Positions 4,868 through 50,006 of a DNA stretch of 57,101 bases are shown piece after piece. The notes under the pieces were generated by a model. The model ran no database searches. It worked only from the letters and a program-made list of their open reading frames with translations, and was not told the origin of the DNA. Source of the stretch: Corallococcus praedator. Lineage in GTDB: Bacteria; Myxococcota; Myxococcia; Myxococcales; Myxococcaceae. The stretch lies in the NCBI RefSeq assembly GCF_003612125.1, contig NZ_RAWI01000015.1, positions 1 through 57,101 on the forward strand, read 5' to 3'. Numbering within the stretch: position 1 is the first letter of the stretch; each line of letters begins with the position of its first letter. A program made the translations under genes and the position numbers.

Positions 4868-6211
4868 TCAGGGGCTGCCGGCGACGTCGCTGGCGGCGGA
4901 GGCGTCGGGTCCATCGAGTCCACGCAGGGGCCGCGAGAGCGCCGCGAGCACGGTGACGAGCATCGTCAGGAGGCCCGCGAGGACGAACATCACCGCGATG
5001 CCCCGTCCTGCGCCCTCGCCGATGAAGCCCCCCACGAGCGCGGCGAGCGCGCCGCCCGGACGCAGGGCCGGTTCGAACACCCGGTCCGCCAGCGGTCCGG
5101 AGAGGGTGTAGGCCAGCGGAAGCATCGCGCCGGTGAGCGTTCCGGTGAACGCGAACACGCGCCCGCGCAGCTCCAGGGGGACCTTGCGCTGGAGCAGCGT
5201 CTGGCTGGCGCCGTTGACCAGCGGGATGCTGAAGAAGAAGCAGAACGCGATGCCCGTCAGCAGCGGGATGGAAGTGACACAGCCCACCAGGATGAACAGC
5301 ACCCCGCTGGTGAACTGGACCGCGAGGATGCCGTGGACCATGCGCTTGGGGCTGCCCCAGGCGCTCATCGCCAGACTGCCCACGAGCAGACCGACCCCGC
5401 CCGCGGTGGTGAGCGCGGCCAACGCGCTCACGTTGGACAGGGAGAGCACCAGCGGGGTGACCAGCACCTCGACGACGCCCACGAAGAAGTTGCTCGTAGC
5501 CAGCAGCGCGATGAGCACCAGCAGGCCCGGCGACGTGCCCAGGTAACGCGCGCCCGCACGCACGGAATCCCCCAGCGACGGGCGTTCCTCTTGGGCCGGC
5601 GTCGTCAGGAACCGCTTCGGGATGCGCAACAGCAACAGCGGCAGCGTGCCCAGGACGAACGTCACCGCGTCGATGACCAGGATGCCCTGGAGGTGGATGG
5701 TCGCCATCAGCGAGGCGCTCGCCATGGGCGCGATGAGCTGCGAGGCGGCCAGTCCCAACTGGACCATTCCGTTGGCGCGGCCCAGGTGCTGCGGCGGGAT
5801 GACCGTGGAGACGAGGACGCCGAAGGCCGGTTGCTGGAACGCGCTGGCCGCCGACACGACGGCGGTGGTGACGTACGCATGCCACGGCTGGAGGTGGCCG
5901 CTGAACAGCAGCGTCGCGAGCGCCAGTGACATCAGGCCCGCGACGGAGTCACTGAGGATCAACACCCAGCGGCGGTTCCAGCGATCCACCAACGCGCCCG
6001 CCACCGGTCCCAACAGGATGGCCGGGAGCGTGGCGGACAGCATGACGAGCGCGAAGCGCGTCACCCCGCCGGTGGTCTCGTACATCCAGACACCCAGCGC
6101 GAAGCTGGTCAGTCCGGAGCCTAGCAGCGACACGCACTGGCCGAGCCAGATGAGGACGGCGAACGCGAGGGGGAACGACGGGTGTTCCGTCTCGGTGGCG
6201 GTGGTCGTCAT
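4868..6211 (-). CDS. MFS exporter of the lipopeptide cluster
   Basis: 447 aa hydrophobic protein with the layout of a 12-helix major facilitator. The first helix is at about residues 15-37, and a typical loop after helix 2 (VDRWNRRWVLILSD) follows. It resembles the EntS-like drug/siderophore exporters often found in NRPS clusters. Its start codon overlaps the stop of the upstream terminal NRPS gene by 4 bp (6208-6211), so the two are translationally coupled. The most likely role is export of the finished lipopeptide or self-protection of the producer. Substrate specificity is inferred from context only. Confidence 0.85.
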   Translation of the reverse strand: MTTTATETEHPSFPLAFAVLIWLGQCVSLLGSGLTSFALGVWMYETTGGVTRFALVMLSATLPAILLGPVAGALVDRWNRRWVLILSDSVAGLMSLALATLLFSGHLQPWHAYVTTAVVSAASAFQQPAFGVLVSTVIPPQHLGRANGMVQLGLAASQLIAPMASASLMATIHLQGILVIDAVTFVLGTLPLLLLRIPKRFLTTPAQEERPSLGDSVRAGARYLGTSPGLLVLIALLATSNFFVGVVEVLVTPLVLSLSNVSALAALTTAGGVGLLVGSLAMSAWGSPKRMVHGILAVQFTSGVLFILVGCVTSIPLLTGIAFCFFFSIPLVNGASQTLLQRKVPLELRGRVFAFTGTLTGAMLPLAYTLSGPLADRVFEPALRPGGALAALVGGFIGEGAGRGIAVMFVLAGLLTMLVTVLAALSRPLRGLDGPDASAASDVAGSP

Positions 6212-22300: not shown

Positions 22301-24604
22301 CGTCGTCTCGGTGATGCCGTACATGTTGATGAGCCGGGGCTGCGTGTCGCCGTGCCTGCGGAACCAGGGCACGAGGCTCGCGGGCTCCAGCGCTTCGCCG
22401 CCGAAGATGACGTAGCGCAGGGCGAGCGGACGCGGGCCGGACTCGCTGCGCTCCTCGGCCTGGATGAGCTGGCGGAAGGCCGCGGGCGTCTGGTTCAGCA
22501 CCGTGACGCGCTCCTGGCTCAGCAGCTCGTAGAAGGCATCCGGCGAGCGCGAGACGAGGTACGGGACGATGACCAGCCGGCCGCCGTGCAGCAGCGCGCC
22601 CCACAATTCCCAGACGGAGAAGTCGAACGCGTAGGAGTGGAACAGCGTCCAGACGTCCTTCTCGTCGAAGTGGAACCACTCTTCCGTCGCCTCGAAGAGC
22701 CGGGTGACGTTGCGGTGCGGCAGCAGCGAACCCTTGGGCAGGCCCGTCGAACCGGAGGTGTAGATGACGTAGGCCAGGTGGTCGCTGTCGAGCGCGAGGC
22801 CCGGCGCCCGGGTGGGTTGCCCCGCGAGCAGCTCCGAGGCCTCCTCCAGCACGAACAGCTCCGTGCCGCTCGCCGGCAGGCGTTCGACCAGGGCGCGCTG
22901 CGTGATGACCAGCGGCATCCGGCTGTCTTCGACCATGAAGGCCAGCCGGTCCGCGGGGTACGTCGGGTCGAGCGGCACGTAGGCGCCGCCTGCCTTCAGG
23001 ATGCCCAGGATGCCCACCACCGTGGCCAGCGAGCGCTCCACGCACAGGCCCACCAGGGTTTCAGGTGCGAGTCCACGCGCCAGCAGCGCATGGGCAAGCT
23101 GGTTGGCGCGGGCGTCCAGCTCCGCGTAGGTCAGGCGCTCGCCGTCGCCCACCACGGCGATGGCGTCAGGGCGTCTGCGGACCTGGGCCTCGAAGCGCTG
23201 GTGCAGACAGTCCCGGCCGGAGAAGTCCTTGAGGACGGGCCAGACGTCGAGCAGTTGGTGGCGCTCGGGCTGCGTCAGCAGGGGCAGGGACTCCAGCCGC
23301 GCATCCGGCTGCGCGACGATGCCTTCGAGCAGCGTCTGGAAGTGCCCGCGCATCCGCTCCATCGTGGAGGGCTCGAACAGGTCGCGGTTGTATTCGAAGA
23401 AGCCGCGCAGCCCGTCCGCGCTCTCCTGGAGGTCCAGCGTCAGGTCGAACTTCGCGGTGCCTGTCTCCACCTCGATGGGGACAATCTTCGCGCCGGGGAG
23501 GACCAGCGCCTGCGGCGCCTGGGCCTGGAGGTTGAACGCGACCTGGAACAGCGGGGTGTAGGCCAGGTTTCGCTCCGGCTGCACCTCGTCCACCAGCCGC
23601 TCGAAGGGGATGTCCTGGTGAGAGTAGGCCGCCAGCGTCGTCTCGCGGGTGCGCTGGAGCAGCTCGCGGAAGGTGGGGTTGCCGGACAGGTCGCCGCGAA
23701 GGACCAGCGTGTTGACGAACAGGCCGATGAGTCCTTCGGTCTGAACGCGGCCCCGGCTGTTCTGCGGCGCGCCCACGAGGATGTCGTGCTGATGGGTGTA
23801 CCGCGACAGCAGGGCCTGGAATGACGCCAGCAGCGTCATGAACAGCGTGGCCCGCTCGCGCTGGCTCAGCCGCTGCAACTCCGCCACGAGCCTGGACGGC
23901 AGGTGCAGGGGCAGCAGCGCGCCGCGCTGGGTCTGGATGGCCGGGCGCGGGTGGTCGGTGGGCAGTTGCAGCAGGGACGCGCCCGCGAGCTGCTTCTTCC
24001 AATAGGCCACGTGCTCGGTGAGCACGCCTTCGGTGCTCAGCCACTCGCGCTGCCACTGGGCATAGTCCGCGTACTGGATGGGCAGGGGCTCCAGCTCCGG
24101 CTCACGGCCCGAGGAGAAGGCCGCGTAGAGCTGCGCTACCTCCTGGATGAGGATGCCCAGCGAGCCACCATCCGAGATGATGTGGTGCATCGTCATCACG
24201 AGGACGTGGTCCGTCGTGGTGAGGCGGAACAGGTGCGCGCGCAGCAGGGGGCCGCGCATCAGGTCGAAGGGACGGCGCGTCTCCTCCGTGGTGCCCTGGC
24301 GGGCCGCCTCTTCACGCTCGGCTTCGGGGAGCGCTTGCAGGTCCACGAGCACGACGGGCGCGGTGCCCTCCGTCGCGACGACCTGGACGGGATGTCCCGC
24401 CTCCTGCGCGAACGTGGTGCGCAGCGATTCATGCCGCTCCACCATCGCGTCGAAGGTCCGCTGGAGCGCGCCGACGTCGAGCACACCCTGGAGCCGCACG
24501 GCCCCCGCGATGTTGTAGCTCGGGTTGTCCGGCTGCATCAGGTGCAGGAACCACAGCCGCTGCTGGGCGAACGAGACGGGGAAGACGAAGGTTTCAGCGT
24601 TCAT
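10367..24604 (-). CDS. Four-module NRPS: C-A(Thr)-PCP, C*-A(Asn)-PCP, C-A(aromatic)-PCP-E, C-A(Orn)-PCP
   Basis: 4745 aa. Module 1: C with HHIISDG (about residue 141), A with YTSGSTG (about 614) and code DFWNIGMVHK = Thr, PCP with GGDS (about 1016). Module 2: an unusual C with CHAIIDG (about 1223) in place of HHxxxDG; A (about 1692) with code DATKVGEVGK, closest to Asn codes; PCP GGHS (about 2088). Module 3: C HHIVADG (about 2281); A (about 2755) with code DACTIAAVCK, of the Phe/Tyr/Trp type; PCP GGDS (about 3143); then an epimerase, HHLVMDAVSWR (about 3325) with EGHGRE. Module 4: a D-acceptor type C (YPLSPMQQGMLFH, HHLLLDG at about 3798); A (about 4271) with code DVGEIGSIDK = Orn; PCP GGHS (about 4671). 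The tail GLSEEELEKLLEG is an acidic docking helix. There is no N-terminal docking domain. Codes were read by hand; the Asn and aromatic calls are the less certain ones. Confidence 0.93.
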   Translation of the reverse strand: MNAETFVFPVSFAQQRLWFLHLMQPDNPSYNIAGAVRLQGVLDVGALQRTFDAMVERHESLRTTFAQEAGHPVQVVATEGTAPVVLVDLQALPEAEREEAARQGTTEETRRPFDLMRGPLLRAHLFRLTTTDHVLVMTMHHIISDGGSLGILIQEVAQLYAAFSSGREPELEPLPIQYADYAQWQREWLSTEGVLTEHVAYWKKQLAGASLLQLPTDHPRPAIQTQRGALLPLHLPSRLVAELQRLSQRERATLFMTLLASFQALLSRYTHQHDILVGAPQNSRGRVQTEGLIGLFVNTLVLRGDLSGNPTFRELLQRTRETTLAAYSHQDIPFERLVDEVQPERNLAYTPLFQVAFNLQAQAPQALVLPGAKIVPIEVETGTAKFDLTLDLQESADGLRGFFEYNRDLFEPSTMERMRGHFQTLLEGIVAQPDARLESLPLLTQPERHQLLDVWPVLKDFSGRDCLHQRFEAQVRRRPDAIAVVGDGERLTYAELDARANQLAHALLARGLAPETLVGLCVERSLATVVGILGILKAGGAYVPLDPTYPADRLAFMVEDSRMPLVITQRALVERLPASGTELFVLEEASELLAGQPTRAPGLALDSDHLAYVIYTSGSTGLPKGSLLPHRNVTRLFEATEEWFHFDEKDVWTLFHSYAFDFSVWELWGALLHGGRLVIVPYLVSRSPDAFYELLSQERVTVLNQTPAAFRQLIQAEERSESGPRPLALRYVIFGGEALEPASLVPWFRRHGDTQPRLINMYGITETTVHVTYRPMSMTEAERTQQSPIGVAIPDLQLYVLDARLEPVPVGVAGEIFVGGAGLARGYLGRPALTAERFIPHPYSRTPGAALYRTGDLARFTKDGQLEYLGRIDHQVKIRGFRIELSEIQIVLSLHPAVREALVLVREDVPGNKSLVAYVAAPKESTPSINDLRQYLLGKLPDYMVPGAFVMLEQFPLTANGKVDRKALPTPDQSRPDLGTQYVAPRTRPEEVLCAIWAEVLDVERVGIHDNFFALGGDSILSIQVLTLAQREGIRFSLQQLFQHQTVATLLQAAEVRAATTEELPRTEPFSLITPEDRARLPADVEDAYPLARIQAGMLYHMALAPNSNIYHNTDSFHLRLRVPLDPVRFEEAVQAIVARQPVLRTAFDMTTYSQPLQLVHRSAHLSIEFVDLRHLSDAEQDAEIHKLLELEKQRHFELSRPPLLRFFIHQRAEGSFQFTLTECHAIIDGWSLHSTLVEMFNHYHALQGGQTPPPAEQTGLTYRDFVALEQRALASEEHQRYWRDQLAGGSVMRLPRWRRALPEGEPRIATVKVPISQEIHAGLKALTRTASVPFKSILVAAHLKVMSLLSGREDVITGMGVNSRPEEGDGSKLRGIFLNTLPFRLKLAPGSWTSLVHAAFESERTLYPFRRYPMAEIQRQWGREALYEVMFNYMHFHVLHDLSGTLASVETLGVIRSEGTNVTLAVHFQTEPHTQELTLELDYNAVELEHEQVERIGASYARVLNALAFHAEEAHHLSSALPPDEQQRMLVEWNATSVPFPRTTTFQELFEAQARMTPDAVAVVDGSRSLSYRALDARANKLAHHLRSRGVGPEHVVALGLERSIELLVGLLGALKAGAAYLPLDATYPAERLAYMLTDSRAAILLTTKALDATFASSYVKRVFLDALEFIGPASPLALPSSAGSESLAYVIYTSGSTGLPKGAMITQGGLVQYLTWAARTYQVEAGQSALVHTSIAFDATVTSLLTPLLRGATVRMLPAGNELETLARVLQEERGHELVKLTPAHLQALSHLIPPAALARLDSTFVVGGEALAPATAEFWREHAPGVRLINEYGPTETVVGCSIHDVTRDGLREGIVPIGRPISNTELYILDERMQPVPVAVAGELYIGGAGVARGYLMRPSLTAERFVPDPFSGRPGQRLYRTGDLARFLPDGTLDFIGRRDGQVKLRGYRIELGEIEAALRMHTSVHDAVVLVREDEPGDPKLVAYVVPSPERQVEAISLRTHLLQRLPGYMIPSAFVAMEELPLTSNGKVNRKGLSSPTLRAIDTVVGPRNDTESLVASIWADVLRTDRFGIHDHFFDLGGHSLLATQVVSRVREAFGLELPISALFEAPTVATLAEHLQALRAHGAGEAPPPPLTAYPREEALPLSFAQQRLWFLDQMQSGSAFYNMPAVLRLTGTLVPETVRRCLEELLRRHEILRTTFQMSGQAPVQRIAPEATPALEFIDLRALPAERREEEARRLATEEAQRPFTLSTGPLFRGALIRLGEDEHLLLLTLHHIVADGWSLSVLVQEVAELYRAFSANQPSLLPRLPVQYGDYARWQREWLSGPVLERQRDYWKQRLAGAPAFLDLPTDFPRPPVQRFLGATHQGLLLPEDAAAKLRDLCRRESVTPFMALMAAFQVLLHRSTGETDIVFGTDIANRNHSGTEGLIGFFVNQLVMRGDLGGDPSFRALLAQARREALAAYAHQDLPFEDLVKALNPERDLAYSPLFQVKLILQNAPSSDLELPGLTLREESSSTGAAKFDMTWVVTDTARGLECLCEYSTDLYTQATIDRMMGHLREVLLGALARPEERISRLPLLSAQERHQVLGAWNDTASPLPEVLLAHQLFEAQAARTPDAVAVSFEEKQLTYRELDARANQLAWYLKERGVGPESRVGLCVERSLDMVVGILGILKAGGAWLPLDPTYPVERLGLMMQDASIPVLVTQEHLAEELPSLGLLVCLDSEWPQIARKPVTPPGVELSPDNLAYIIFTSGSTGRPKGTLLSHRGLCNTALAAGRGHRLHPASRVLQFAAFGFDASVCEVFSTLLAGARLCLASRDDIMPGPPLQALLASQAITTVTLTPSVLARLEPTGLPALETLISAGETCTPELARRWVGACHFINAYGPTEVTVCASLEDHVDPERPGIGKAWPNVRLYVLDARMQPLPVGVPGELYIAGVGVARGYLDRPELTAERFVPEPFGTVPGARMYRSGDRVRLRADGSLEFLGRLDQQVKLRGFRIELEEIEAALAERPEVSAVAVALREEAPGRKQLVAYVVPEEGMNPEPRALRDGLAARLPEYMVPSAFVLLQALPLTAHGKVDRKALPSLEQQHPQQRESTYVAPRTPVEQALADIWASVLSRERVGIHDDFFELGGDSIVSIQVIARATEAGLYITPKQVFQHKTIASLAPQVGQAQRPQAEQGAVMGPGPLTPIQRWFFEWERPQPHHYNQAVLLGLRQPLAPALLEEALRALVAHHDVLRLRFDSTPEGWKQTGTGLENTVTLRQVDLSGLEDGPQRAALEVEAQRAQAGFRLEQAPLMAAVLFDLGAQRGTRLLLAIHHLVMDAVSWRVLLMDLESACQQLLRDAPASLPPKTTSFLAWAQRLEHHAQGPELEQEAAYWLGQSSDVQALPVDDATGANTHASARTVTVSLETEETRLLLQEVPKSWRARIDEVLIAALAQALSSWTNQSRVRVQLEGHGREEIFEDVDLSRTVGWFTTTYPVTLELPEGGTPGARLRAVRDALQQVPRKGLGYGLLRYLRKDDVGQRIQAQPEPQVSFNYLGQLDSALSPASLFTASDEPSGSPHGSLGRRRQVLDVNAHVLGGRLEVSFTYSQALHQQATLERVAAEYLQALRTLVAQRASEDAARVSPGDFPLAPLSQPALDELVRTSPGIVDLYPLSPMQQGMLFHALLDPRESVYFERAAWTLEADLDVAALRRAWQQIIARYPILRTRFAWEGLAQPLQVVQREVHLPWEEHDLRDKPPEVQQRWQSDWMATDQARGFNPKQAPLMRVAVLRLAERSWRVVWSFHHLLLDGWSVGRVLNEMLAFYDAATRQQPLRMEEPPLYRDYVAWLVKQGTAQAEGWWREALKGFGEPTPLPGESGGQARSAPQVMGERRRHLSAEVTERLRALSRRHQVTLNTLVQAAWALVLGRHAGAEDVVFGATVAGRPPELPGVEQMVGLFINTLPTRVKLPPEQKVVDWLKAFQDWQVERAPYEYAPLVQVQGWSPVPRGTPLFESIFVFENYPVEEAVRQGASQFEIRDVVAQERTNYPLTLTAHADRELLLHIDFESPRLEAAAVERMLEQMGTVLEGMTEAEDKRLWQLSLLTGAERHRVLVEWNDTLVEPGQMACLPELIEAHARRTPDAIAVASPGSAPLTYGQLEERANRLAHHLRARGVGPEHLVGVCLEKSPELIIALLGILKAGGAYVPLDPSYPSERLTRMISEARLSLLLTQRDIAETLSNPAVELYLLEEEAPARAPLPANAPPWRSSPEELAYVVFTSGSTGTPKGVMVSHRNWANAYLGWERSYELTEGCRSHLQMASFSFDVFAGDFARAMGSGGKLVLCPREWLLEPTKLHALMKDEQVDCAEFVPAVLRGLLQHLEDTRQRLDFMRALIAGSDAWFVSEYHRLRGVIGGTTRLINSYGVTEATIDSTWFDGDGLGTEGNQLVPIGKPFANNRLYVLDTHQQPVPAGLAGELFIGGEGVARGYRLRPELTAERFVPDPFGPPGARLYRTGDRARYLPDGNIEFMGRADTQVKLRGFRVELGEIESTLGRHPSVQSAVVVLREDPKSPRRLVAYVVGASEALDTTVLRDFLRERLPDYMIPALMVRMDALPLTPNGKVDRRALPAPDATARAAEAQFVPPRSPTETDLLAIWREVLGLESISVLDTFFDIGGHSLLATQIISRANTAFQVTLPLRALFEYPTIAELAEQVVLAQLEQADSVALAQAMDEVDGLSEEELEKLLEGANE

Positions 24605-24699
24605 GGGCGTGATCGGAAATCAGGTAGGGCCCCGTGAGGGCGCGAGGACTGGCCTTGCGCGCCACACCGGCGGGGCCCGTGAAGAAGGAAGGGCTGCCT

Positions 24700-27600
24700 T
24701 CAGTCCCCTTTGTTGGGGGACTCGGGCAGGTTGAGGTCGGCGCGGGAGGTGGCCTGGACGCGGCGGGCCTGTCGGGGGCGCGCGACGAGCGGAGGCGGTG
24801 TCACGGAAGGCGTGCCCTGCTGCCGCGCCTCCAGGTGCTTCGCCATGGCTTCCAGGGTGGGCCGTTCGAAGAGGACGCGCAGGGACACGTCCACGCTCCA
24901 GGCCTCCTGCACGCGGGCGAGGATCTGCACGGCCTTCATCGAATGACCGCCAAGTTCAAAGAAGTCCTCGTGCAGGCCGACGCGCTCCACGCCCAGCACC
25001 TCGCGCCAGATCTCCGCGAGGCGGATCTCCAGAGGCGTGCGCGGCGGCTCGAACGCGGCGGTCGCGCGCTGGGACGGCGTGGGCGAGGGCAGGGCCTTGC
25101 GGTCGAGCTTGCCGTTCGCCGTGCGAGGGAAGGACTCCAGCGCCACGAAGTGCGACGGAATCATGTAGGCCGGCAGATGCGAGCGCAGGTGCTCCCGGAG
25201 CGCCTGGGCCTCCGGAGCGTCGCCAGTGCCGGGCTGGAAATAGGCCACCAGCTCCGAGCTGCCCGCGAGTTCCCACACCCGCACCGCCACCTCGTGGACG
25301 CCGGGGTGCAGGCTCAGCCGCGCTTCAATCTCTCCCAGCTCGATGCGGTGGCCGCGCAGCTTGATCTGCCCGTCCTCGCGGCCCACGTAGGCCAGGGCGC
25401 CATCCGGCAGGACGCGCACGCCGTCACCCGTGCAGTACAGCCGGGCTCCGGGCTCACGGCTGAAGGGATCCGGCACGAAGCGCTCAGCGGTCAGGTCCGG
25501 ACGGTGGAGGTAGCCCTGGGCCACCCCGAGTCCGCCGATGTACAGCATGCCCACCACGCCCACGGGAACGGGCTGGAGCCACGCGTCGAGCACGTACACC
25601 CGCGTGTTGTCGATGGGTCGGCCGATCGTGAGCCGGGCCTGCTCCTCCACGCGCGACACGGTGGACCAGATGGTGGTCTCCGTGGGGCCGTACATGTTCC
25701 ACAGCGATGCACCCCGGGCCCGCAGCGGCGCAATCAGCTCCGGGGGAAGGGCCTCGCCACCGCACAGCATCTTGAGCCGCGAGTCCCCGGCCCAGCCCAG
25801 CGCGAGCATCATCCGCCACGTGGAGGGCGTGGCCTGCATCACGGTGGCGCCGCTGGCCGCGAGCGCGGGAAGCAGTCGCGTGCCATCCACGGCCGTCTCC
25901 CGGCTGGCGATGACCACGCGCGCGCCGACGCTCAGGGGCAGGAACAGCTCCAGCACGGAGATGTCGAAGGCGATGGTCGTCACCGCGAAGAGCGTGTCGG
26001 CGTCGGTGATGCCGGGCTCGCGCTGCATCGACGCCATGAAGTTGGTGACCGCGCGGTGGGGCACCGCCACGCCCTTGGGTTTCCCGGTGGAGCCCGACGT
26101 GTAGAGCACATAGGCCAGGTGCTCACCGGACAGCGACAGGTGCAGCGGATCCGAAGAGGCCTGTTCCGCGTCCGCCAGCAGGACCGTCCGGACCTGGTGC
26201 GTCGGGGCTTGCGCGGCCAGTGCTGGCTCGGTCACGAGCAGCGCCACGCCACTGTCCTCCAGGATGTGGGCCCGACGCTCTTCGGGGTAGAGCGGATCCA
26301 GCGGCACGTACGCCGCGCCGGCCTTGAGGATGCCGAGCAGTCCCACGAGCAGCTCCAGGGAACGCTCCATGAAGATGCCGACCCGCTGTCCCGGCTCGAC
26401 GCCCAGGGAGCGCAGGTGGTGCGCCAGTCGGTTGGAGCGCGCCTCCAGCTCACCGTAGCTCAGCGCCTGCGCTTCGAAGCGGGCGGCGATGGCGTCCGGG
26501 CGTCGTGCGGCCTGGACTTCAAACAGGCCGTGCAGGCCCTGCGAAGGTGCCACCTCGCGGGACGTGGCGTTCCAGTCGCGCAGCAGGAGCGTCCGCTCGG
26601 GCTCGGTGAGCAGGGGCATCCGGGAGACGGGCTGCGCGGGGTTGTCCGCCACGGCGGTGAGCAGGGACAGGAAGTGTCCCGTCATCCGTTCGAGGGTCGC
26701 GGCGTCGAACAGGTCGGTGTCGAAGGTCAGGTCGCTGACGAGCCCGTGCGGCGTCTCGTTCATGGAGAGCGAGAGGTCGAACTGCGACGTGCCGCTTTCG
26801 ATCTCCAGCTGTTCAATCGCGAGCCCGGGCAGGGTCAGCGGCTCGGTGGGCGTGTTCTGGAGTGTGAACAGCACCTGGAAGAGCGGCGAGTGGCTCAGCG
26901 CGCGGGTCGGCTGGAGCGCTTCGACCAACTGCTCGAAGGGCAGCGCTTGATGGACGGAGGCCGCGAGCGTGGTGCGGCGCACCTGTCCCAGCAGCTCCGA
27001 GAACGAGGGTTCCCCGTCCAGCTTGAGGCGAAGGGGCAGCGTGTTGACGAACAGGCCGATGAGCGGCTCCGTCTGCGGCAGCCGGTTGGCGATGGGGAAG
27101 CCCACCACCAGGTCCTTCTGCCGGCTGTGGCGCGACAGCAGCACGCCGAAGGTCGCCAGCAGCGTCATGAACAGCGTGGACTCCGCCTCACGTCCGCGTG
27201 CCTTGAGCCGCGCGACGAGTTCCGCGGGCACGGTGAAGCGCCGCGTGGCGCCCTGGAAGCGCTGCGCGGCGGGACGGGGACGGTCGGTGGGCAGCTCCAG
27301 CAGGCCCGGAGCGCCGGCCAGATGCTCCTTCCAGAACGTGAGCTGCGGCTGCATGGCGCCGCCCGTGGCGCGCTCCTGCTGCCAGTGCGCGAAGTCCGCG
27401 TAGCGGAGCGACAGCTCGGGCAGTGACGGCGCCGTGCCGGTGGTGAAGGCCCGGTAGAGCTCCGCCAGCTCGCGGACCAGCACCCCGATGGACCAACCGT
27501 CCGAAGCGATGTGGTGCAGCGTGAGCAGCAGCACGTGTTCGCGGGCATCGAGCTGGAGCAGGCACAACCGCAGCGGCAGGTCGCGCGACAGCTCGAAGGC

Positions 27601-28133
27601 CTTGCGCGCCTCCTCCGCCGCGAGCCGCCGGACCTCCGCGCTCCTCATGTCCGCAGGCAGTGCCTGGAGGTCCACGCGTGGCAGCGGCACGGGCGCGACA
27701 GGCTGGATGCGCTGCACGGGACGTCCCTGCGCCTGGGCGTAGGTCGTCCGGAGGATGTCGTGACGACGGACGATCTCCTCCAGGCTCCGGCGAAGCGCGT
27801 CCACATCGAGCACGCCCTCAAGGCGCAGGGCCGCGGGCATGTTGTACGCGCCGCTCGGTCCCTGGAGCTGTTCCAGGAACCACAGGCGCTGCTGTCCGGA
27901 AGACAGCGGCACGTCCCCTTCGCGCGGCCCCGTCGGGATGAGCTCCGCGGCGGCCTGGAGTGACTGTCCCGCCTGGCGCAGGAACGCGGTGATCTCCTCC
28001 TTGCGCTCCTTCATCCGCCCCGTCAGCTCCGGGGTCATCACGCCCGGAGGCGCGCTGAAGCGCAGGCGTTCGCCTTCCATCCACAGCCGCACGTCCTGCT
28101 TGCGGAGCTGCGTCAGCAGTTCATCCAGGCCGC

Positions 28134-28137
<4 letters not shown>
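24700..28137 (-). CDS. Single-module NRPS with TubC docking domain: C-A(Gly)-PCP
   Basis: 1145 aa. Residues 1-51 match the TubC-type N-terminal docking domain (LLTQLRKQDVRLWMEGERL..., basic and aromatic), which binds the C-terminal tail of an upstream synthase. The condensation domain has HHIASDG at about residue 207. The adenylation domain has YTSGSTGKPKG at about 679 and hand-read code DILQLGMIWK, very close to known glycine codes. The carrier protein has GGHS at about 1067. The start is a GTG overlapping the stop of the upstream PKS-NRPS by 4 bp, so translation is coupled. A 95-bp gap separates it from the next synthetase gene, the largest gap in the operon. It should add the second residue, glycine. 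Confidence 0.92.
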
Positions 28138-36359
<8,222 letters not shown>

Positions 36360-36523
36360 GTAGGTCAGGATGGACAGGTCGAAATTCCGCTACTGTTGGA
36401 ATAAAAGACAAATCTAGTAATTGTCGTTTAGCATGGAGGACACTTCTAGGTGAACTGTCGGTGGAATCCTTGAGTTCCAAAAGGATTCGGGGCTGGGCGC
36501 TGCGGACCCACGGGTGGTTGCGG
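36360..36523. promoter_or_regulatory. Divergent AT-rich promoter region of the lipopeptide cluster
   Basis: This 164-bp gap separates the first minus-strand synthase gene from the plus-strand amidinotransferase-like gene. About 36381-36435 is far more AT-rich than its surroundings. It contains an imperfectly spaced dyad, GACAA (36407-36411) and TTGTC (36421-36425). Promoters for both directions are expected here, but no single -35/-10 pair is convincing. The dyad is a candidate operator. Confidence 0.5.
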
Positions 36524-37483
36524 ATGACGTTGACTGGAATCGAGTGCTGGTCGGAGTCGGCACAGCTGGAGTGCGTCGCGGTGTGCCGCCCGGCGACGCT
36601 CGAGGTCGCGACCGCGCTGGAGGCCTCCGCGGTGGGGTTCCTCGGCGCTGTCTCCCGTCAGGAGGCGGAGGACGCCTCCGGCCGGCTGTGCGAGGCGCTG
36701 ACCCGCTTCGGGTGCCGGCTCTTCGACCTGGGGGACTTCCTTCCGGAGTCCGCGCGCGCGGTGAGCGACGCCTCGGTGAACCGGGTGTTCGTGCGGGACA
36801 CGGCCGCGGTCGTGGGCCGTCAGTTGGTGACGGGCACCGCGGCCTTCGCCGCGCGCATCGCCGAGTTCGACGCGACGCATGCGGCGCTGGCGGAGCTGAT
36901 CCACGGCGGTCCACGCGAAGCGGCTTCGGCGGAGCGAGCCGGGGCCGGCCTGGAGTTCGGGGACGTCTTCCTGCTCGACGAGGCGCGGATCCTCGTCAAC
37001 CTGGGGCTGCGCAGCGACGCGCGCGCCCTCCAGGGGTTCGTGGACACGGCCTGGAGCGCGGGCTTCCAGGAGGTGGGGGCCGTCAGCATCCCCGAGCACC
37101 TGGGCATCATCCACCTGGACCTGGCCTTCAACGTGCTCGGGCCCCGGGCGGTGGTGGCCCGCTCGTTCCTGAAGCACCTGCCCGTGCGCGTGCTCACGCC
37201 AGCGCAGGCACCGCAGTGGGAGTCCTTCGAGGGCTTCTTCGCGCGGCGGGGACGCAAGGTCCTCCCGCTGCCCGCCTCCGAACCCCCGTGCTTCATCTCC
37301 AACTACATCTTCCTGGGCCCCCAGCTGCTGCTGGCCTCGCAGAGCGCCGCGCCGCGACTCAAGCCGCTGGTGAAGGAGCTGGGCATCGAGGTGGAGGGCG
37401 TGGACATCGCGGCGCTTGAACGGGGCAACGGCAGCGTCCGGTGCCTCACGCTGCCTCTCAAGCGCCGCGCGACCGCCTCCTGA
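36524..37483 (+). CDS. Arginine deiminase/amidinotransferase-superfamily enzyme
   Basis: About 319 aa from the ATG at 36524. The frame is open further upstream, and GTG 36461 or TTG 36470 are alternative starts. Family motifs in order: FVRD, EFGD (EGGD in most relatives), IIHLDLAFN with the catalytic His, and NGSVRCLTLPLKR with the nucleophilic Cys. The pattern is nearest the DDAH/YkgA-like branch of guanidino-modifying enzymes. The usual RTN substrate motif after GL is replaced (GLRSDARA), so specificity may differ. It is divergent from the NRPS operon, which has two ornithine modules. An amidinotransferase would release ornithine from arginine; a deiminase would give citrulline; a tailoring role on Orn side chains is also possible. 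The superfamily call is solid; the reaction is inferred. Confidence 0.78.
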   Translation: MTLTGIECWSESAQLECVAVCRPATLEVATALEASAVGFLGAVSRQEAEDASGRLCEALTRFGCRLFDLGDFLPESARAVSDASVNRVFVRDTAAVVGRQLVTGTAAFAARIAEFDATHAALAELIHGGPREAASAERAGAGLEFGDVFLLDEARILVNLGLRSDARALQGFVDTAWSAGFQEVGAVSIPEHLGIIHLDLAFNVLGPRAVVARSFLKHLPVRVLTPAQAPQWESFEGFFARRGRKVLPLPASEPPCFISNYIFLGPQLLLASQSAAPRLKPLVKELGIEVEGVDIAALERGNGSVRCLTLPLKRRATAS

Positions 37484-37504: not shown

Positions 37505-38098
37505 TCAGAGGTAGTCCACCCAGCCCAGCCGCCCGCGGCTCGCGAGCACGCGTTCGATCATCAGCTCGTGCAGCGCGAGGAGCGGCTTCGCCACGTCCTC
37601 GCCCTCCAGCCGCGCGAGCGCGCCGGCCATGGCCTCCAGCGTGGACATCCCATCCGGGTGCGGCGGACGGCGCAGGCGGCGGGAGTCCGGAGACGGCGGG
37701 GGCAGCCGCATCCCCGGCAGGCGCCGCAGGCCGGGGACGCGCTGCACCATGCGCCGGGCCTGCGCCCAGCTTCCGTCGATGATCACGAGCCGCCGGGGCA
37801 AGGGCCCTTCGGCCTCCGGCGCGTCGGGGAACAGCAGCCACGTGTCCGAGCCGTCCCCCAGCACCGACGCATCGAAGGGCTGACCGGGCGCGCCATAGGA
37901 CACGATGCTGCAGCGGGGCAGGGCCAGCGCCGCGATGCGCGCGGTGTTGGTGCTCTTCTCCGCCTCCTTGTTGTGGCGGATGACGAGCAGCTCCGTGCGC
38001 GTGGGCACGACGGGGACCTGCGCGCACAGACACCACGCCGCGGGCAGGTAGCACCGCGCACAGCGACCCGCGAGGTCCTCCGGGGTCCGGGACCTCAT
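37505..38098 (-). CDS. DTW-domain protein, probable tRNA-uridine aminocarboxypropyltransferase
   Basis: 197 aa. The N-terminal cysteines CxxC...CxC (C13, C16, C23, C25) and the core motif IDGSWAQARRM match the DTW family (usually DGTW). Members transfer the 3-amino-3-carboxypropyl group of S-adenosylmethionine to a uridine in tRNA (acp3U; TapT/YfiP and DTWD proteins). Length and motif spacing fit a complete protein. The ATG overlaps the stop of the upstream hypothetical gene by 4 bp (38095-38098), so the two form a small operon that converges on the amidinotransferase-like gene. Confidence 0.85.
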   Translation of the reverse strand: MRSRTPEDLAGRCARCYLPAAWCLCAQVPVVPTRTELLVIRHNKEAEKSTNTARIAALALPRCSIVSYGAPGQPFDASVLGDGSDTWLLFPDAPEAEGPLPRRLVIIDGSWAQARRMVQRVPGLRRLPGMRLPPPSPDSRRLRRPPHPDGMSTLEAMAGALARLEGEDVAKPLLALHELMIERVLASRGRLGWVDYL

Positions 38099-38688
38099 TT
38101 CGCCGTGCGGTAGCGCTCCATCAGTGTCCGCGCCTCCCGCAGCTTCTCCTCGACGAAGCGGTCATCCGCGTCCGGTTCGTACTCCGCGTCCGGCGGATCC
38201 AACTGGAACAGGGCGGACAGGCTCGCGGGGGCGACCTCCAGCCACTCGGAGGTGCGGTTGAGCGCGGCCTGCCGGCGTCCGGCGAAGGTCTCCGGCCCGT
38301 CCTCCGGGCCACAGCGACAGATGCGCGCCGAGTCCCCCGACACGTCCACGTAGAGGCCCAGCACCTCCGCGTCCACCTCCGCCGCCAGCGCGCAGGTGGC
38401 CTCGCTGACGTAGGCGGCCATGGCCTGCGCCGCCGAGCGCTCCGTGAGCGAGCGCACCAGGTACACCTGCCACCCGGCCTCCGTGAGCGCGCCGGCCTCG
38501 GTGAGAGGGGCCAGCTCCGCGGGGGGGGCCTGGATGCGCGACAACAGCCGACGCACCGGGACCTCCAGCCGCTCGAGCCGGGCGTTCGACGCGGGGCAGA
38601 AGAAGACCACGCGGTACTCTCGGCTGTCGGCGGCGGTTTCCATGGGCATACGGCTGTGCCCAAGAGGACCAAAGGACTCCCCACGCAC
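38095..38688 (-). CDS. Hypothetical protein, cotranscribed with the DTW gene
   Basis: Up to 197 aa; not recognised. It is soluble and acidic, with no signal peptide or membrane helix. A patterned alpha/beta N-terminal half (YRVVFFCPASNARLERLEV) is followed by an Ala/Glu-rich middle and a charged C-terminal helix (DDRFVEEKLREARTLMERY). The start is unsure: ATGs at 38688, 38649 and 38643 are all possible, and none has a strong ribosome binding site. Coupling by the ATGA overlap to the DTW gene suggests a related task, but nothing in the sequence shows it. Confidence 0.65.
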   Translation of the reverse strand: MRGESFGPLGHSRMPMETAADSREYRVVFFCPASNARLERLEVPVRRLLSRIQAPPAELAPLTEAGALTEAGWQVYLVRSLTERSAAQAMAAYVSEATCALAAEVDAEVLGLYVDVSGDSARICRCGPEDGPETFAGRRQAALNRTSEWLEVAPASLSALFQLDPPDAEYEPDADDRFVEEKLREARTLMERYRTAK

Positions 38689-45784: not shown

Positions 45785-47422
45785 TCAATCCGCGTCCTGA
45801 CCCGCCCGCCCGCTCACGTCCGCCCAGGTGAGTCCGAAGCGGGTCAGGTACTTCCGCAGCCGGTCCGCGTCATTGACGCTCTTCTTCTGCGCGCGCGACT
45901 GCGCGAACAACGCCCGGCCCGCGTCCGACAGCGAGCGCGCCGAGCGACACACGCCCACCACGTCCGCCAGTTGCACGCGGTCGAACCGATCCAACTCCGC
46001 CGCGCGCACCGGGCCCAGCACCTCCGCCAGCACATCCTCCGTGCCCGCCGTCGCGGCCCCCGCCGGCCGCCACTGCGTGCGCAGCCGCTCCAGCTCCTCC
46101 TCCACCACCTCGCGCGTCATCCGTCCCCCGTTGGCCAGGGTGGACATGCGCAGCACGGCCGCGTTGAGGTCGCGGAAGTTGCCGTTCCACCGTCCCTCTG
46201 GCGACGTGGCGAAGCGCAGGAAGTGCTCCTGGGCCTCCTTGCTCATCGTCACCCGCGTCCCCAGCGCCTGCGAGGCCTGATCCAATTCGAAGAGCAGGTT
46301 GGGCGCGATGTCCTCCGGGCGCTCGCGCAGCGCGGGCAGTCGGAACGTCCACAGGTTGATGCGCGCGAGCAGGTCCTCGCGGAAGCGGCCCCGCTCCACA
46401 TCCAACTGGAGGTCGCGGTTGGTCCCGGCGATGAGCTGGAAGTCGCTCTCCACCTCCTTGTCCGCGCCCACGGGCAGGAACCGCTTGTCCTCCAACGCGC
46501 GCAGCAGCATGGCCTGCTCGTCCGCGCCCAGCTCTCCAATCTCATCCAGGAACAGCACGCCCCCGTGCGCCTGTCGCATCAACCCAGGCCGGTCGCCCAC
46601 CGCGCCCGTGAAGGACCCCTTCACATGGCCGAAGAGCGTGGACATCGCGCCATCGCCGCGCAGCGTGGCGCAGTTCAGGTCCACGAACGGGCCCGCCACC
46701 TGGTTGCGCGCCTTCTTCAGCGCGTAGATGCGCCGGGCGAGCTGCGACTTGCCCGCCCCCGTGGGCCCCGTCAGCAGGAGCGGCGCGCGGGACTGCACCG
46801 CCACCTGCTCGATGCGCTCGATGAGCCGGTTGAACGCGGCGTTGTGCGTGTCGATGCCGGACTTGAGGAAGGACAGACCTTCGCGCTGCTGCTGACGGAA
46901 GCGCGCGGCCAGCGTGTCGTAGTTTGACAGGTCCAGGTCGATGATGGCGTGCGAGCCCGTCGCCGAGCGCTTCCCCGCGTTTCCCGGCGACGTCTGCACC
47001 AGCCGCCCCGGAATCAGCCGGCTCTCCACCAACAGGAACATGCAGATCTGCGCGATGTGCGTGCCCGTGGTGATGTGCACCAGGTAGTCCTCTTCCTCCG
47101 GATGGAAGGGGTGCGCGCGCACGTGATCCAACAGCGCGCCGTACGTCTCCTCCAGGTTCCACGGGTCGCGGATGGGCAGGGACGTCAGCCGCACCTCCGT
47201 CTCCGGTGACACCTGGGCGATGTCCTCCTGAATCCCCGTGGCCATGGACGCGGCCCGGGGTGGGTGCAGCAGCTCCAGCCGGTGCACCACCAGGTCCTCC
47301 TGCTGGCACAGCGCCACCGTGGGCCGCCAGCGCGTCCACCGCTGCGTCCCCGACCCCGTGTCCAGCGTCGTCCCCAGCATCCCGAACACGACCGTCCGGC
47401 GCACCTTCGCTTTTTGAGCCAT
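45785..47422 (-). CDS. rtcR: RtcR, sigma-54-dependent regulator of RNA repair genes
   Basis: 545 aa. The N-terminal RtcR/CARF-like sensor domain (about residues 1-185, starting VVFGMLGTTLD) is followed by an AAA+ sigma-54 activation domain: Walker A GPTGAGKS (about 222), the sigma-54 contact loop GSFTGA (about 270, usually GAFTGA), Walker B VLFLDEIG, and a C-terminal DNA-binding part. RtcR proteins sense RNA ends or damage and activate rtcBA from a sigma-54 promoter. It is divergent from rtcB with a 146-bp gap that contains a good -24/-12 promoter and a palindrome, exactly the expected arrangement. Confidence 0.93.
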   Translation of the reverse strand: MAQKAKVRRTVVFGMLGTTLDTGSGTQRWTRWRPTVALCQQEDLVVHRLELLHPPRAASMATGIQEDIAQVSPETEVRLTSLPIRDPWNLEETYGALLDHVRAHPFHPEEEDYLVHITTGTHIAQICMFLLVESRLIPGRLVQTSPGNAGKRSATGSHAIIDLDLSNYDTLAARFRQQQREGLSFLKSGIDTHNAAFNRLIERIEQVAVQSRAPLLLTGPTGAGKSQLARRIYALKKARNQVAGPFVDLNCATLRGDGAMSTLFGHVKGSFTGAVGDRPGLMRQAHGGVLFLDEIGELGADEQAMLLRALEDKRFLPVGADKEVESDFQLIAGTNRDLQLDVERGRFREDLLARINLWTFRLPALRERPEDIAPNLLFELDQASQALGTRVTMSKEAQEHFLRFATSPEGRWNGNFRDLNAAVLRMSTLANGGRMTREVVEEELERLRTQWRPAGAATAGTEDVLAEVLGPVRAAELDRFDRVQLADVVGVCRSARSLSDAGRALFAQSRAQKKSVNDADRLRKYLTRFGLTWADVSGRAGQDAD

Positions 47423-47436
47423 CAGGATAGGTATTT

Positions 47437-47448
47437 ATCCCATGGGAT
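47437..47448. promoter_or_regulatory. Candidate RtcR enhancer palindrome
   Basis: ATCCCATGGGAT is a perfect 12-bp palindrome about 45 bp upstream of the -24 element of the rtcB promoter. GGATAGG-like direct repeats flank it (47425-47431 and 47445-47451). It also overlaps the 5' leader region of rtcR, so it could mediate autoregulation. Confidence 0.5.
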
Positions 47449-47491
47449 AGGGATTTCCACCCCCGACCAGGAGCCCTACCCGGAAACAGCG

Positions 47492-47508
47492 TTGGCACGG
47501 CGGCTGCT
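47492..47508 (+). promoter_or_regulatory. Sigma-54 promoter (-24/-12) of rtcB
   Basis: TTGGCACGGCGGCTGCT matches the sigma-54 consensus TTGGCAC-N5-TTGCT, with GG and GC correctly spaced. The start of transcription would be near 47519, 50 bp before the rtcB ATG. It agrees with the divergent sigma-54 activator gene. Confidence 0.82.
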
Positions 47509-47568
47509 CTAGCTCCCCCAAGTGACCGGGACGAAAGAGCCCGGGCGAACGACCGAAAGGTGCAGGCC

Positions 47569-48804
47569 ATGAACCGCGAGAACACGAACTACGAAGTGCT
47601 GTCGGACGAAGCGGGTCGCCCCATCAAGGCGTGGACGGTGGGTGTGCCGTTCGAGGACGAGGCGAAGCAGCAGCTTCGCAACCTCCGGGGCCTGCCCTTC
47701 ATCCACAAGTGGGTCGCGGTGATGCCGGACGTGCACCGCGGTTACGGCGCGACGGTCGGGAGCGTGGTGCCCACGGTGGGTGCGGTGGTGCCGGCGGCGG
47801 TGGGCGTGGACATCGGATGCGGGATGATCGCCGTGCGCACGACGCTGCGCGCGGAGCAGCTGCCGGACTCGCTGCGCGGGGTGCGCTCGGCCATCGAGGC
47901 GGCGGTTCCCCACGGCCGTACGGACAACGGCGGCCGTAACGACCGTGGCGCCTGGAAGGATGCTCCCGCGACGCATACGGCCGCGTGGGCGTCGCTCGTG
48001 ACGGGGTACGAGCAGATTGTCGCGAAGCACAAGCACATCGGCCGTGGGCCGCAGCTGGGTCACCTGGGAACGCTGGGAACCGGGAACCACTTCATCGAGC
48101 TGTGCCTCGATGAGTCGGATGGCGTGTGGCTGATGTTGCACTCCGGGTCGCGCGGGGTGGGTAACCGCATCGGGAGCTACTTCATCGAGTTGGCGAAGAA
48201 GGACATGAGCCGCTACCACATCCACCTGCCGGACGCGGACCTGGCGTACCTGCCGGAGGGGACGGAGCACTTCGACGACTATGTGTTCGCGGTGAGCTGG
48301 GCGCAGGACTTCGCGGCGATGAACCGCGAGCTCATGATGCGCTCGACGGTGGAGGCGCTGAAGACGAGCGGTGAGTTGCCTCCGTTCGAACTGGCCGAGT
48401 CGGCGGTGAACTGCCACCACAACTACATCTCGCGCGAGCACCACTTCGGAAAGAACTGCTTCGTGACCCGCAAGGGCGCGGTGCGGGCGCGTGAAGGCGA
48501 CATGGGAATCATCCCCGGCAGCATGGGGGCGCGTTCGTACATCGTCCGTGGAAAGGGGAACGCGGATGCCTTCCACTCGTGCAGCCACGGCGCGGGCCGC
48601 GTGATGTCGCGCACCGAGGCGAAGAAGCGCTTCTCGCTGGATGACCACGCGAAGGCGACCGAAGGCGTGGAGTGCCGCAAGGACGTGGACGTGATTGACG
48701 AGACGCCGGCCGCGTACAAGCCCATCGATGCCGTGATGGCGGCGCAGGCGGACCTGGTGGAGGTCGTCCACACGCTCAAGCAGGTGGTGTGCGTGAAGGG
48801 ATAG
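47569..48804 (+). CDS. rtcB: RtcB RNA ligase
   Basis: 411 aa from ATG 47569 with AAAGG upstream; GTG 47560 is a less likely start. RtcB joins RNA 2',3'-cyclic phosphate or 3'-phosphate ends to 5'-OH ends using GTP and manganese. Visible signatures: VGVDIGCGM (Asp/Cys metal ligands), GTGNHFIE, HSGSRGVGN and SCSHGAGR, with the histidine that is guanylylated. The length is typical of the bacterial short RtcB form. It is followed after 185 bp by rtcA. It is controlled by RtcR through the sigma-54 promoter upstream. Confidence 0.95.
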   Translation: MNRENTNYEVLSDEAGRPIKAWTVGVPFEDEAKQQLRNLRGLPFIHKWVAVMPDVHRGYGATVGSVVPTVGAVVPAAVGVDIGCGMIAVRTTLRAEQLPDSLRGVRSAIEAAVPHGRTDNGGRNDRGAWKDAPATHTAAWASLVTGYEQIVAKHKHIGRGPQLGHLGTLGTGNHFIELCLDESDGVWLMLHSGSRGVGNRIGSYFIELAKKDMSRYHIHLPDADLAYLPEGTEHFDDYVFAVSWAQDFAAMNRELMMRSTVEALKTSGELPPFELAESAVNCHHNYISREHHFGKNCFVTRKGAVRAREGDMGIIPGSMGARSYIVRGKGNADAFHSCSHGAGRVMSRTEAKKRFSLDDHAKATEGVECRKDVDVIDETPAAYKPIDAVMAAQADLVEVVHTLKQVVCVKG

Positions 48805-48914
48805 CCGACGCAGTCCTTCCCACCCGCCGTCCAGCCGAGGTCCCCATGCCGGGATGACGATGCCGAGGCGCCCGTTCCCCCCAAGAGGTCCCGCAAGGGC
48901 CGTTAGGGTGGGGG

Positions 48915-48934
48915 AGCGGGCGCCGCTATTTTTT
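48915..48934 (+). terminator. Terminator-like hairpin with T-run between rtcB and rtcA
   Basis: AGCGG-GCG-CCGCT followed by a T-rich tail (ATTTTTTAT) looks like a short intrinsic terminator. The T-run is rare in this GC-rich window. It could reduce readthrough from rtcB into rtcA. The stem is only 5 bp, so strength is doubtful. Confidence 0.4.
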
Positions 48935-48989
48935 ATCAGGGATGGGATGCTGCATCCGTCCGCGAGCGCCACGAAGGAGCACGACGCAC

Positions 48990-50006
48990 ATGGTTCGCAT
49001 CGATGGTTCACAGGGTGAGGGGGGCGGCCAGGTGCTGCGCACCGCGCTGGCGTTGTCGCTGGTGACGGGGACTCCGTTCGAGATGATCAACGTGCGCGCT
49101 GGCCGCGACAAGCCGGGCCTGCTGCGCCAGCACCTCACCGCCCTCAAGGCCGCGGAGGCCGTGGGCGCCGCGGAGGTGACGGGCGCGGAGCTGCGCTCGA
49201 CGCGGCTGTCCTTCCACCCGCGCGCGCTGACGGCGGGCAACTACCACTTCGCGGTGGGCTCGGCGGGCAGCGCGACGCTGGTGCTCCAGACGGTGCTGCC
49301 CGCGCTCCTGCACGCGGAAGGTCCGTCCACGCTGATGCTGGAGGGCGGGACGCACAACCCGGCGGCGCCGCCGTTCGACTTCCTGGAGAAGACGTACCTG
49401 CCGCTGCTCAACCGCATGGGGCCGCGCGTGGAGGTGACGCTGGAACGCCCCGGCTTCTATCCGGCCGGCGGCGGGAAGTTCCGCGTGAACATCCAGCCGG
49501 CGAAGTTGCAGCCGCTGCACCTGATGGAGCGCGGCCGGGTGCTGCGGCGCGAGGCGGTGGCCCAGGTGGCGGCCATCCCCTTCGACGTGGCCCGGCGCGA
49601 GCTGGAGACCGTGGCGGGCGTGCTGAAGCTGCGGGAGGACCAGCAGCGGCCGGAGGAGCTCAAGCGCGCCTTCGGTCCGGGCAACGTGCTGCGCGTGGAG
49701 GTGGAGAGCGAGCACGTGACGGAGGTGTTCACCGGCTTCGGTGAGCGCGGCAAGCGGGCGGAGCTGGTGGGCGAGCAGGTCGCCGCCGAGGTGAAGCGCT
49801 ACCTGGACGCTGAAGTCCCCGTGGGCGAGCACCTGTGCGACCAGCTGCTGTTGCTGCTCGCGCTGGCGAAGGGCGGCAGCTTCCGCACCCTGGCACTGGA
49901 TGGCCATGCGTTCACGCAGCGCGAGACGATGGCCCACTTCCTGGACGTGAAGATCGACGTCCGCGAGGTGGCGCGCGACGTGTGCGACGTGACGGTGCGC
50001 GGCTGA
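48990..50006 (+). CDS. rtcA: RtcA RNA 3'-terminal phosphate cyclase
   Basis: 338 aa from ATG 48990 with AAGGAG 10 nt upstream; this start gives the family N-terminus VRIDGSQGEGGGQ. RtcA converts RNA 3'-phosphates to 2',3'-cyclic phosphates through an adenylylated histidine; the expected site is the His in VGEHLCDQL near residue 285. The product is a substrate for RtcB, so rtcBA forms a repair pair. Other family marks are GGTHN and FYPAGGG. The 185-bp gap after rtcB contains a terminator-like hairpin, so rtcA may be expressed at a lower level. Confidence 0.93.
   Translation: MVRIDGSQGEGGGQVLRTALALSLVTGTPFEMINVRAGRDKPGLLRQHLTALKAAEAVGAAEVTGAELRSTRLSFHPRALTAGNYHFAVGSAGSATLVLQTVLPALLHAEGPSTLMLEGGTHNPAAPPFDFLEKTYLPLLNRMGPRVEVTLERPGFYPAGGGKFRVNIQPAKLQPLHLMERGRVLRREAVAQVAAIPFDVARRELETVAGVLKLREDQQRPEELKRAFGPGNVLRVEVESEHVTEVFTGFGERGKRAELVGEQVAAEVKRYLDAEVPVGEHLCDQLLLLLALAKGGSFRTLALDGHAFTQRETMAHFLDVKIDVREVARDVCDVTVRG

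Follow-up and report, generated by a model that had tools for sequence, protein, structure and literature searches.

A gene encoding an arginine deiminase (ADI)-like protein is divergent to, and strictly co-occurs with, the operon of a lipopeptide synthase in the predatory soil bacterium Corallococcus praedator and its relatives, is under purifying selection and retains the residues of a guanidino-group-modifying active site. We read it as the only precursor or tailoring enzyme of the cluster, and consider it likely that it is dedicated to this cluster and acts on arginine, which it probably converts to citrulline or ornithine as a building block. Deimination to citrulline fits the data best and is the most likely reaction, with module 1 of the synthase as the likely user, and an ornithine-forming reaction follows close behind.

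The enzyme gene and its lipopeptide synthase cluster

The window, the whole 57,101-nucleotide stretch analysed here, makes up one contig of a 10.5-Mb draft genome that its record describes as 1491 contigs with 99.96% completeness. The open frame at 36524-37483 on the forward strand shows coding-type codon use, and its start at 36524 is backed by homologues beginning M-x(5)-ECWSE, with further in-frame starts existing upstream; it is a conserved, genuine protein-coding gene. The sequence-only reading had flagged the range 36360-37483, which is made up of this gene, confirmed as such, and of the intergenic DNA before it. That intergenic DNA had been called a shared control region, which holds for its position, but a promoter scan found no sigma-70 consensus in its 164 bp, and its sequence and length differ among genera. 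The features of the locus are as follows.

36524-37483, forward strand: ADI-like guanidino-group-modifying enzyme, 319 aa (open reading frame, Pfam, HMM alignment, AF2 model)
36360-36523, no strand: divergent intergenic region between the enzyme gene and the synthase operon, 164 bp
28134-36359, reverse strand: hybrid synthase, 2741 aa, ACP-KS-AT-ACP-AMT-C-A1-PCP; A1 code DAENIGAITK
31440-32762, reverse strand: class-III aminotransferase (AMT) stretch, used as co-occurrence probe; formation of a beta-amino fatty acid expected
28800-29552, reverse strand: part of the A1 domain, used as search probe
24700-28137, reverse strand: NRPS, 1145 aa, TubC_N docking-C-A2-PCP; A2 code DILQLGMIWK (Gly)
10367-24604, reverse strand: NRPS, 4745 aa, C-A3-PCP-C-A4-PCP-C-A5-PCP-E-C-A6-PCP; codes A3 DFWNIGMVHK (Thr), A4 DATKVGEVGK (Asn-like), A5 DACTIAAVCK (Phe-like), A6 DVGEIGSIDK (Orn)
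6208-10374, reverse strand: NRPS, 1388 aa, C-A7-PCP-TE; A7 code DVGEIGSIDK (Orn)
4868-6211, reverse strand: MFS exporter of the cluster; present in all ten clusters read
3086-4828, reverse strand: fatty acyl-AMP ligase (FAAL), presumed to load the first ACP; present in all ten clusters read

The operon thus carries what defines a beta-amino lipopeptide synthase of the iturin/puwainaphycin kind, namely a FAAL, a PKS module with a class-III AMT, NRPS modules and a TE. With the residue names that we take the adenylation-domain codes to denote, its seven NRPS modules give the series X-Gly-Thr-Asn-Phe-Orn-Orn. The code DAENIGAITK of A1 and the code DVGEIGSIDK of A7 recur in 21 of 21 clusters, and A6 has DVGEIGSIDK or DVGEVGSIDK in all ten in which it was read. 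These ten, the window and nine of the other 20, were read from end to end and each has four synthase genes, the MFS gene and the FAAL gene, so that in the conserved seven-gene cluster the enzyme is the only gene other than synthase, loader and exporter. An antiSMASH reading printed in 2022 gives FA-X-Gly-Thr-Asn-Phe-Orn-Orn-TE for an orphan cluster of M. xanthus and M. hansupus (PMC9581180); the predicted sequence is identical, and the two almost certainly belong to the same cluster family. The two Orn modules of the sequence-only reading are therefore borne out, by the DVGEIGSIDK codes at A6 and A7 and by the printed Orn-Orn. Neither "deiminase" nor "amidino" occurs in the main text of PMC9581180, and no description of the lipopeptide product or of the enzyme's part in the cluster was found in the open-licence literature.

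Two irregularities of the synthase genes were seen. In one of the ten clusters (genome G059) the third synthase gene is spread over two frames that overlap (13317-26537 and 26456-27556 in coordinates of the joined stretch), and the MFS gene was called short; the split may be a frameshift, a gene-calling effect or a sequencing error. In the window, the C domain that precedes A4 (around 20930, at residue 1225 of the 10367-24604 protein) has CHAIIDG in place of HHxxxDG, with the first His replaced by Cys and the second retained.

An initial search gave a match to the enzyme in 22 of 96 genomes of the family. One of these matches (G082, E 1.2e-4) falls in a frame that is an alanine racemase, which leaves 21 carriers, and a search of 195 genomes across the phylum, in each of which 11 candidates were scored, returned the same 21 at 1e-5. 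The AMT of the synthase was found with 76-100% identity in precisely the same 21 of the 96 genomes. Each of the 21 genomes with either gene thus has both, some 4 kb from each other, and the enzyme is present in none of the 75 genomes without the synthase, counts that come from related and hence not independent genomes. The next AMTs are at most 62% identical, some AMT match at 1e-60 being present in 48 of the 96 genomes; five clusters with such weaker AMTs had neither an Orn code among their pattern-recognised A domains nor a match to the enzyme. Outside the window, all 19 wide loci that were read show the enzyme gene and the synthase as a divergent pair, with a far flank that varies by genus. 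This supports the tie between enzyme and cluster made in the sequence-only reading, whose refuting outcome, the gene beside unrelated neighbours in most genomes, did not occur. Nine pairs gave dN/dS values of 0.07-0.23, indicating purifying selection on the enzyme, and enzyme and synthase distances correlate closely over 20 loci (Pearson 0.98, Spearman 0.89, 190 pairs). That a general metabolic deiminase came to lie by the cluster through chance has nothing in its favour beyond family membership, and co-occurrence, divergent pairing kept across differing flanks and distance correlation have largely refuted it, leaving it with hardly any probability.

The locus is carried by Corallococcus (with C. 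terminator at 92% identity in the enzyme), a Myxococcaceae MAG and Myxococcus species. A record labelled Comamonas sp. KCTC 72670 also carries it at 62% identity, and its label looks wrong. A tblastn search of plasmids gave ten distant matches, none with 80% query coverage, and 26 neighbour stretches gave no profile match to the enzyme and a single 28-residue tblastn match at E 0.35. Adjoining the enzyme, 37505-38649 holds a DTW-domain gene and a 184-aa gene with no Pfam match; both stand by the four copies from the genus Corallococcus only and not by the copies read in G042 and the genus Myxococcus. Farther along the window, 45785-50006 is an RNA-repair locus in which an RtcR activator gene (807.8 bits) is divergent from a 414-aa gene at 47560-48804 and which also holds an RNA 3'-phosphate cyclase (RtcA) gene; its position suggests that the 414-aa gene is RtcB.

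Family, predicted fold and active site

Sequence and predicted fold place the enzyme in the guanidino-group-modifying superfamily, with ADI as the closest characterised family. It matches the Pfam ADI family PF02274 at E 5.5e-12 (45.8 bits, cut-off 22.8), and the ADI models of NCBIfam and Pfam find all 11 homologues, the best at 6.2e-19 and 9.4e-18. The Pfam label ADI by itself cannot tell a deiminase from an amidinotransferase, just as homology cannot separate transfer from hydrolysis. The equivalog cut-offs of the NCBIfam ADI models were not reached (42.4 bits where arcA requires 489.1, and 44.7 against 414). Dimethylargininase (DDAH) gave weak NCBIfam and Pfam matches, the NCBIfam one far under its cut-off. 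When a profile of the 11 homologues was searched against solved structures, ADIs came out at the top (8.2e-9) and DDAH next (0.07), and no amidinotransferase appeared at E <= 1.

The AF2 model of the enzyme (pTM 0.71, mean pLDDT 68.5) has the alpha/beta propeller fold of the superfamily. Compared with solved structures it scores highest against ADIs (Z 23.9-25.4, 301-307 residues aligned), two of which align over 307 and 305 residues at 3.1 A with Z 25.4 and 25.2. The amidinotransferases SxtG, HsvA, AGAT and StrB1 follow at Z 19.9-21.4, NnhA at up to 20.2, DDAH at up to 20.1 and ArgZ/AgrE at 18.3-18.8. Against the deiminase reading stand the missing helical domain described below, the poor model (pLDDT < 50) over residues 79-111, the stretch that holds N86, D92 and R111, and the human amidinotransferase listed at E 1.2-1.4 by a single-sequence search.

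The active-site residues point in the same direction as the family matches. Nine positions, N86, D92, R111, E144, R163, H197, D199, G301 and C307, are invariant in 11 of 11 aligned homologues, and among them D92, E144, H197, D199 and C307 form the Cys/His/acidic core, so the claim that the Cys/His/Asp core is kept (D92, H197, D199 and C307) stands, with E144 joining it. Residues were matched by HMM alignments and the list of ADI residues in PMC3474736. In M. penetrans ADI the nine positions correspond to Asn198, Asp204, Arg223, Glu257, Arg276, His313, Asp315, Gly434 and Cys440, in that order. The arginine contacts given for M. arginini ADI, Asn155, Arg180, Arg232 and Gly392 (PMC3474736), are matched by N86, R111, R163 and G301; the fifth contact, Leu44, acts by its carbonyl. 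Loss of an RTN motif, claimed earlier, is not borne out: no definition of such a motif was found in the literature consulted, and at the corresponding place F-V-R-D in the enzyme faces F-T-R-D in M. penetrans ADI, so that Arg and catalytic Asp are both kept. At residue 302 the enzyme has Asn where ADIs have Arg (P. aeruginosa) or Met (M. penetrans) (PMC3474736).

Given that a Cys-His-Glu triad is typical of the ADI and DDAH hydrolases (PMC11659421), Glu at position 144 fits an ADI/DDAH-type site. The helical domain of ADI (about 85 residues, between the first and second modules) is missing from the enzyme, with profile positions 83 and 85 aligning to positions 114 and 178 of the M. penetrans chain, and a feature expected of members of the ADI family is thus absent. 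At the place of E144, human AGAT presumably has Asp, and at the place of D92, which is that of Asp161 in ADI, ArgZ presumably has Asn71; if right, both indicate a deiminase-type site in the enzyme.

Arginine metabolism of the host and candidate reactions

The genome of C. praedator encodes an N-acetylornithine carbamoyltransferase (440.8 bits, cut-off 288, contig G000:C1479) and an aspartate carbamoyltransferase, and in it no ornithine carbamoyltransferase, no carbamate kinase and no second PF02274 gene were found, the first two judged by model cut-offs. Arginine synthesis therefore probably runs via N-acetylcitrulline, with N-acetylornithine carbamoyltransferase, as judged from the gene content. 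In this acetylornithine route the free intermediate is citrulline and not ornithine, and free ornithine is thus probably not an intermediate of the arginine pathway. With no other PF02274 gene and no carbamate kinase over cut-off, the ADI energy pathway is hardly the role of the enzyme. An agmatinase lies barely above its cut-off (175.2 against 174.3 bits) and an arginase-like protein well under it (68.7 against 227.6). Away from the cluster, a 390-aa frame at G000:C22:25224-25478 matches PF21571, the ArgZ-like C-terminal domain, at 51.8 bits.

We tentatively propose that the enzyme makes L-citrulline from free L-arginine and that module 1 loads it, a reading we favour over each other single one while holding it at less than even. 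Cys307 would attack the guanidinium of free L-arginine, whose alpha groups would be held by N86, R111 and R163 and whose guanidinium by D92 and D199, with H197 and E144 as the putative general base pair. Ammonia would depart, and water would free the amidino-thiol intermediate to give L-citrulline in the cytosol. Module 1, with its code DAENIGAITK, would then load citrulline, yielding beta-amino-fatty-acyl-Cit-Gly-Thr-Asn-D-Phe-Orn-Orn, which the TE would release and the MFS protein export. We infer the reaction type, the free arginine substrate, the citrulline product and module 1 as its consumer: ADI leads in all three measures, with its catalytic and contact residues kept, the enzyme is the sole non-core gene of the cluster, and module 1 is the only module with no residue for its code, being X also in the antiSMASH reading (PMC9581180). 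On the other side, citrulline should already be a free intermediate of the acetylated route, which makes a dedicated source less needed.

The module 1 code in other clusters also weakens the link to citrulline. DAENIGAITK is the code of the first module of a large NRPS that is encoded by several genes in a genome from a different family of the order (G135:C5:300000-359999), where no match to the enzyme was found within the 60 kb read. NRPSs of two further genomes (G057 and G002) have first modules with D[IV]ENIGAIT, the tenth letter not being trusted, some 800 aa between the A3 motif and the PCP that possibly hold an inserted domain, and DAFFLG-type codes in the modules after this stretch. An enzyme match is absent from the stretches read around all three clusters, whose other small genes were judged by size and first residues only, and these relatives yielded no residue for A1. 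Nothing useful on A1-type code strings turned up in the open-licence literature. The A1 code presumably resembles codes for N5-modified ornithine. N-hydroxyornithine as the residue of module 1 was rejected, the C. praedator genome having no Lys/Orn N-oxygenase at E <= 1e-40; in a search of 145 genomes, such an enzyme occurred among the carriers only in G042, G055, G059, G066 and G067, and no NRPS A domain was recognised by pattern near the N-oxygenase genes of G042 and G055.

It is possible, if doubtful, that the enzyme instead takes the amidino group off L-arginine, as an amidinotransferase or an ArgZ-like dihydrolase, and provides L-ornithine for modules 6 and 7. The two conserved Orn modules speak for this, and it gains from the arginine route of the host, with its N-acetylornithine but no ornithine carbamoyltransferase over cut-off and with no more than the sub-cut-off arginase-like protein and the borderline agmatinase found beside them. 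According to PMC2242806, antibiotic or toxin synthesis was at that time the one known setting of prokaryotic amidinotransferases. However, the proposal loses from the enzyme's nearest relatives, deiminases that form citrulline, and from five congeneric genomes that have no copy of the enzyme (G016, G021, G022, G023 and G025) and whose NRPSs have Orn-type DVGE[IT]GSIDK codes; eight stretches around such modules of enzyme-free genomes held no significant enzyme match. If these genomes use the same arginine route, ornithine can be obtained without the enzyme. Moreover, an acceptor amine is not evident, and D92 is Asp as in ADI where we take ArgZ to have Asn71. Supply of citrulline and supply of ornithine thus each have a counter-example. 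The deiminase reading is also weakened in that homology has misled before in this superfamily: for the cyanobacterial protein Sll1336, PMC2242806 argued in favour of a deiminase and against an amidinotransferase. Titles of solved structures now name the cyanobacterial ArgZ as a dihydrolase, and we take Sll1336 to be ArgZ.

Tailoring, in which free arginine donates an amidino group to the side chain of an Orn in the lipopeptide (Orn to Arg) or a residue of the product is deiminated, appears unlikely. It would suit the sole non-core enzyme of a cluster, SxtG and HsvA stand high among the non-ADI fold matches, and specialised metabolism elsewhere uses amidinotransferases (PMC2242806). By contrast, N86, R111 and R163 are the set that in ADI holds a free amino acid by its alpha-amino and carboxylate groups, and an Arg-specific A domain could place Arg residues directly. 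Rather less probable still is a single enzyme serving both ends, with ornithine made for modules 6 and 7, in a host whose arginine route uses N-acetylated intermediates, and the amidino group passed to an amine on the lipopeptide or on another precursor; if true, the acceptor could be a basic residue that module 1 loads, for instance, and an ADI-like scaffold would have turned into a biosynthetic amidinotransferase or dihydrolase in myxobacteria.

We give little credence to self-protection or signalling, in which the enzyme would alter the cluster's own compound, one from the prey or the pool of arginine and supply no residue. Regulators and protection genes, too, often lie divergent to an operon, which counts for it. 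NnhA of the same superfamily can give resistance (PMC11659421), but no feature found here favours such a role and the resistance suggested earlier gained no evidence, the amino-acid contact set of ADI being intact and an MFS exporter already being in the cluster. Citrulline for module 1 stays the preferred reading.

Relation to known systems

ADI (ArcA) of Mycoplasma, Pseudomonas and Streptococcus shares with the enzyme the predicted fold, the motif order and the nine positions, but has about 410 aa including the helical domain, whereas the enzyme has 319 aa and is tied to an NRPS cluster; Asn302, the sub-cut-off NCBIfam scores and a host with no carbamate kinase over cut-off set the two further apart. 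The amidinotransferases StrB1, SxtG, HsvA and human AGAT are of the same superfamily and fold and likewise have no ADI helical insert, and several bacterial ones act in specialised metabolism, those of phaseolotoxin and cylindrospermopsin being named in PMC2242806, but their fold scores against the enzyme are below those of ADI. DDAH is as compact as the enzyme, with no helical domain, and matches it less well than ADI in sequence and fold. ArgZ forms ornithine directly from arginine, and the N-terminal domain of ArgZ/AgrE has the same fold with a lower score, while its large C-terminal part is absent from the enzyme. Among lipopeptide synthases, those of iturin/mycosubtilin and puwainaphycin also combine a FAAL, a PKS module and an aminotransferase in a hybrid synthase with a beta-amino fatty acid, the iturins having a seven-residue ring (PMC4219810), in which paper the word "amidinotransferase" does not occur. 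In the present cluster, unlike in these, the FAAL is a separate last gene, the residues differ and an ADI-like gene is attached.

Both Corallococcus and Myxococcus have this conserved lipopeptide cluster. The reaction of its enzyme would name residue X or explain the supply of ornithine, which would allow the product mass to be predicted, and it would show whether, and for which reaction, an ADI-like protein with no helical domain was recruited to peptide biosynthesis.
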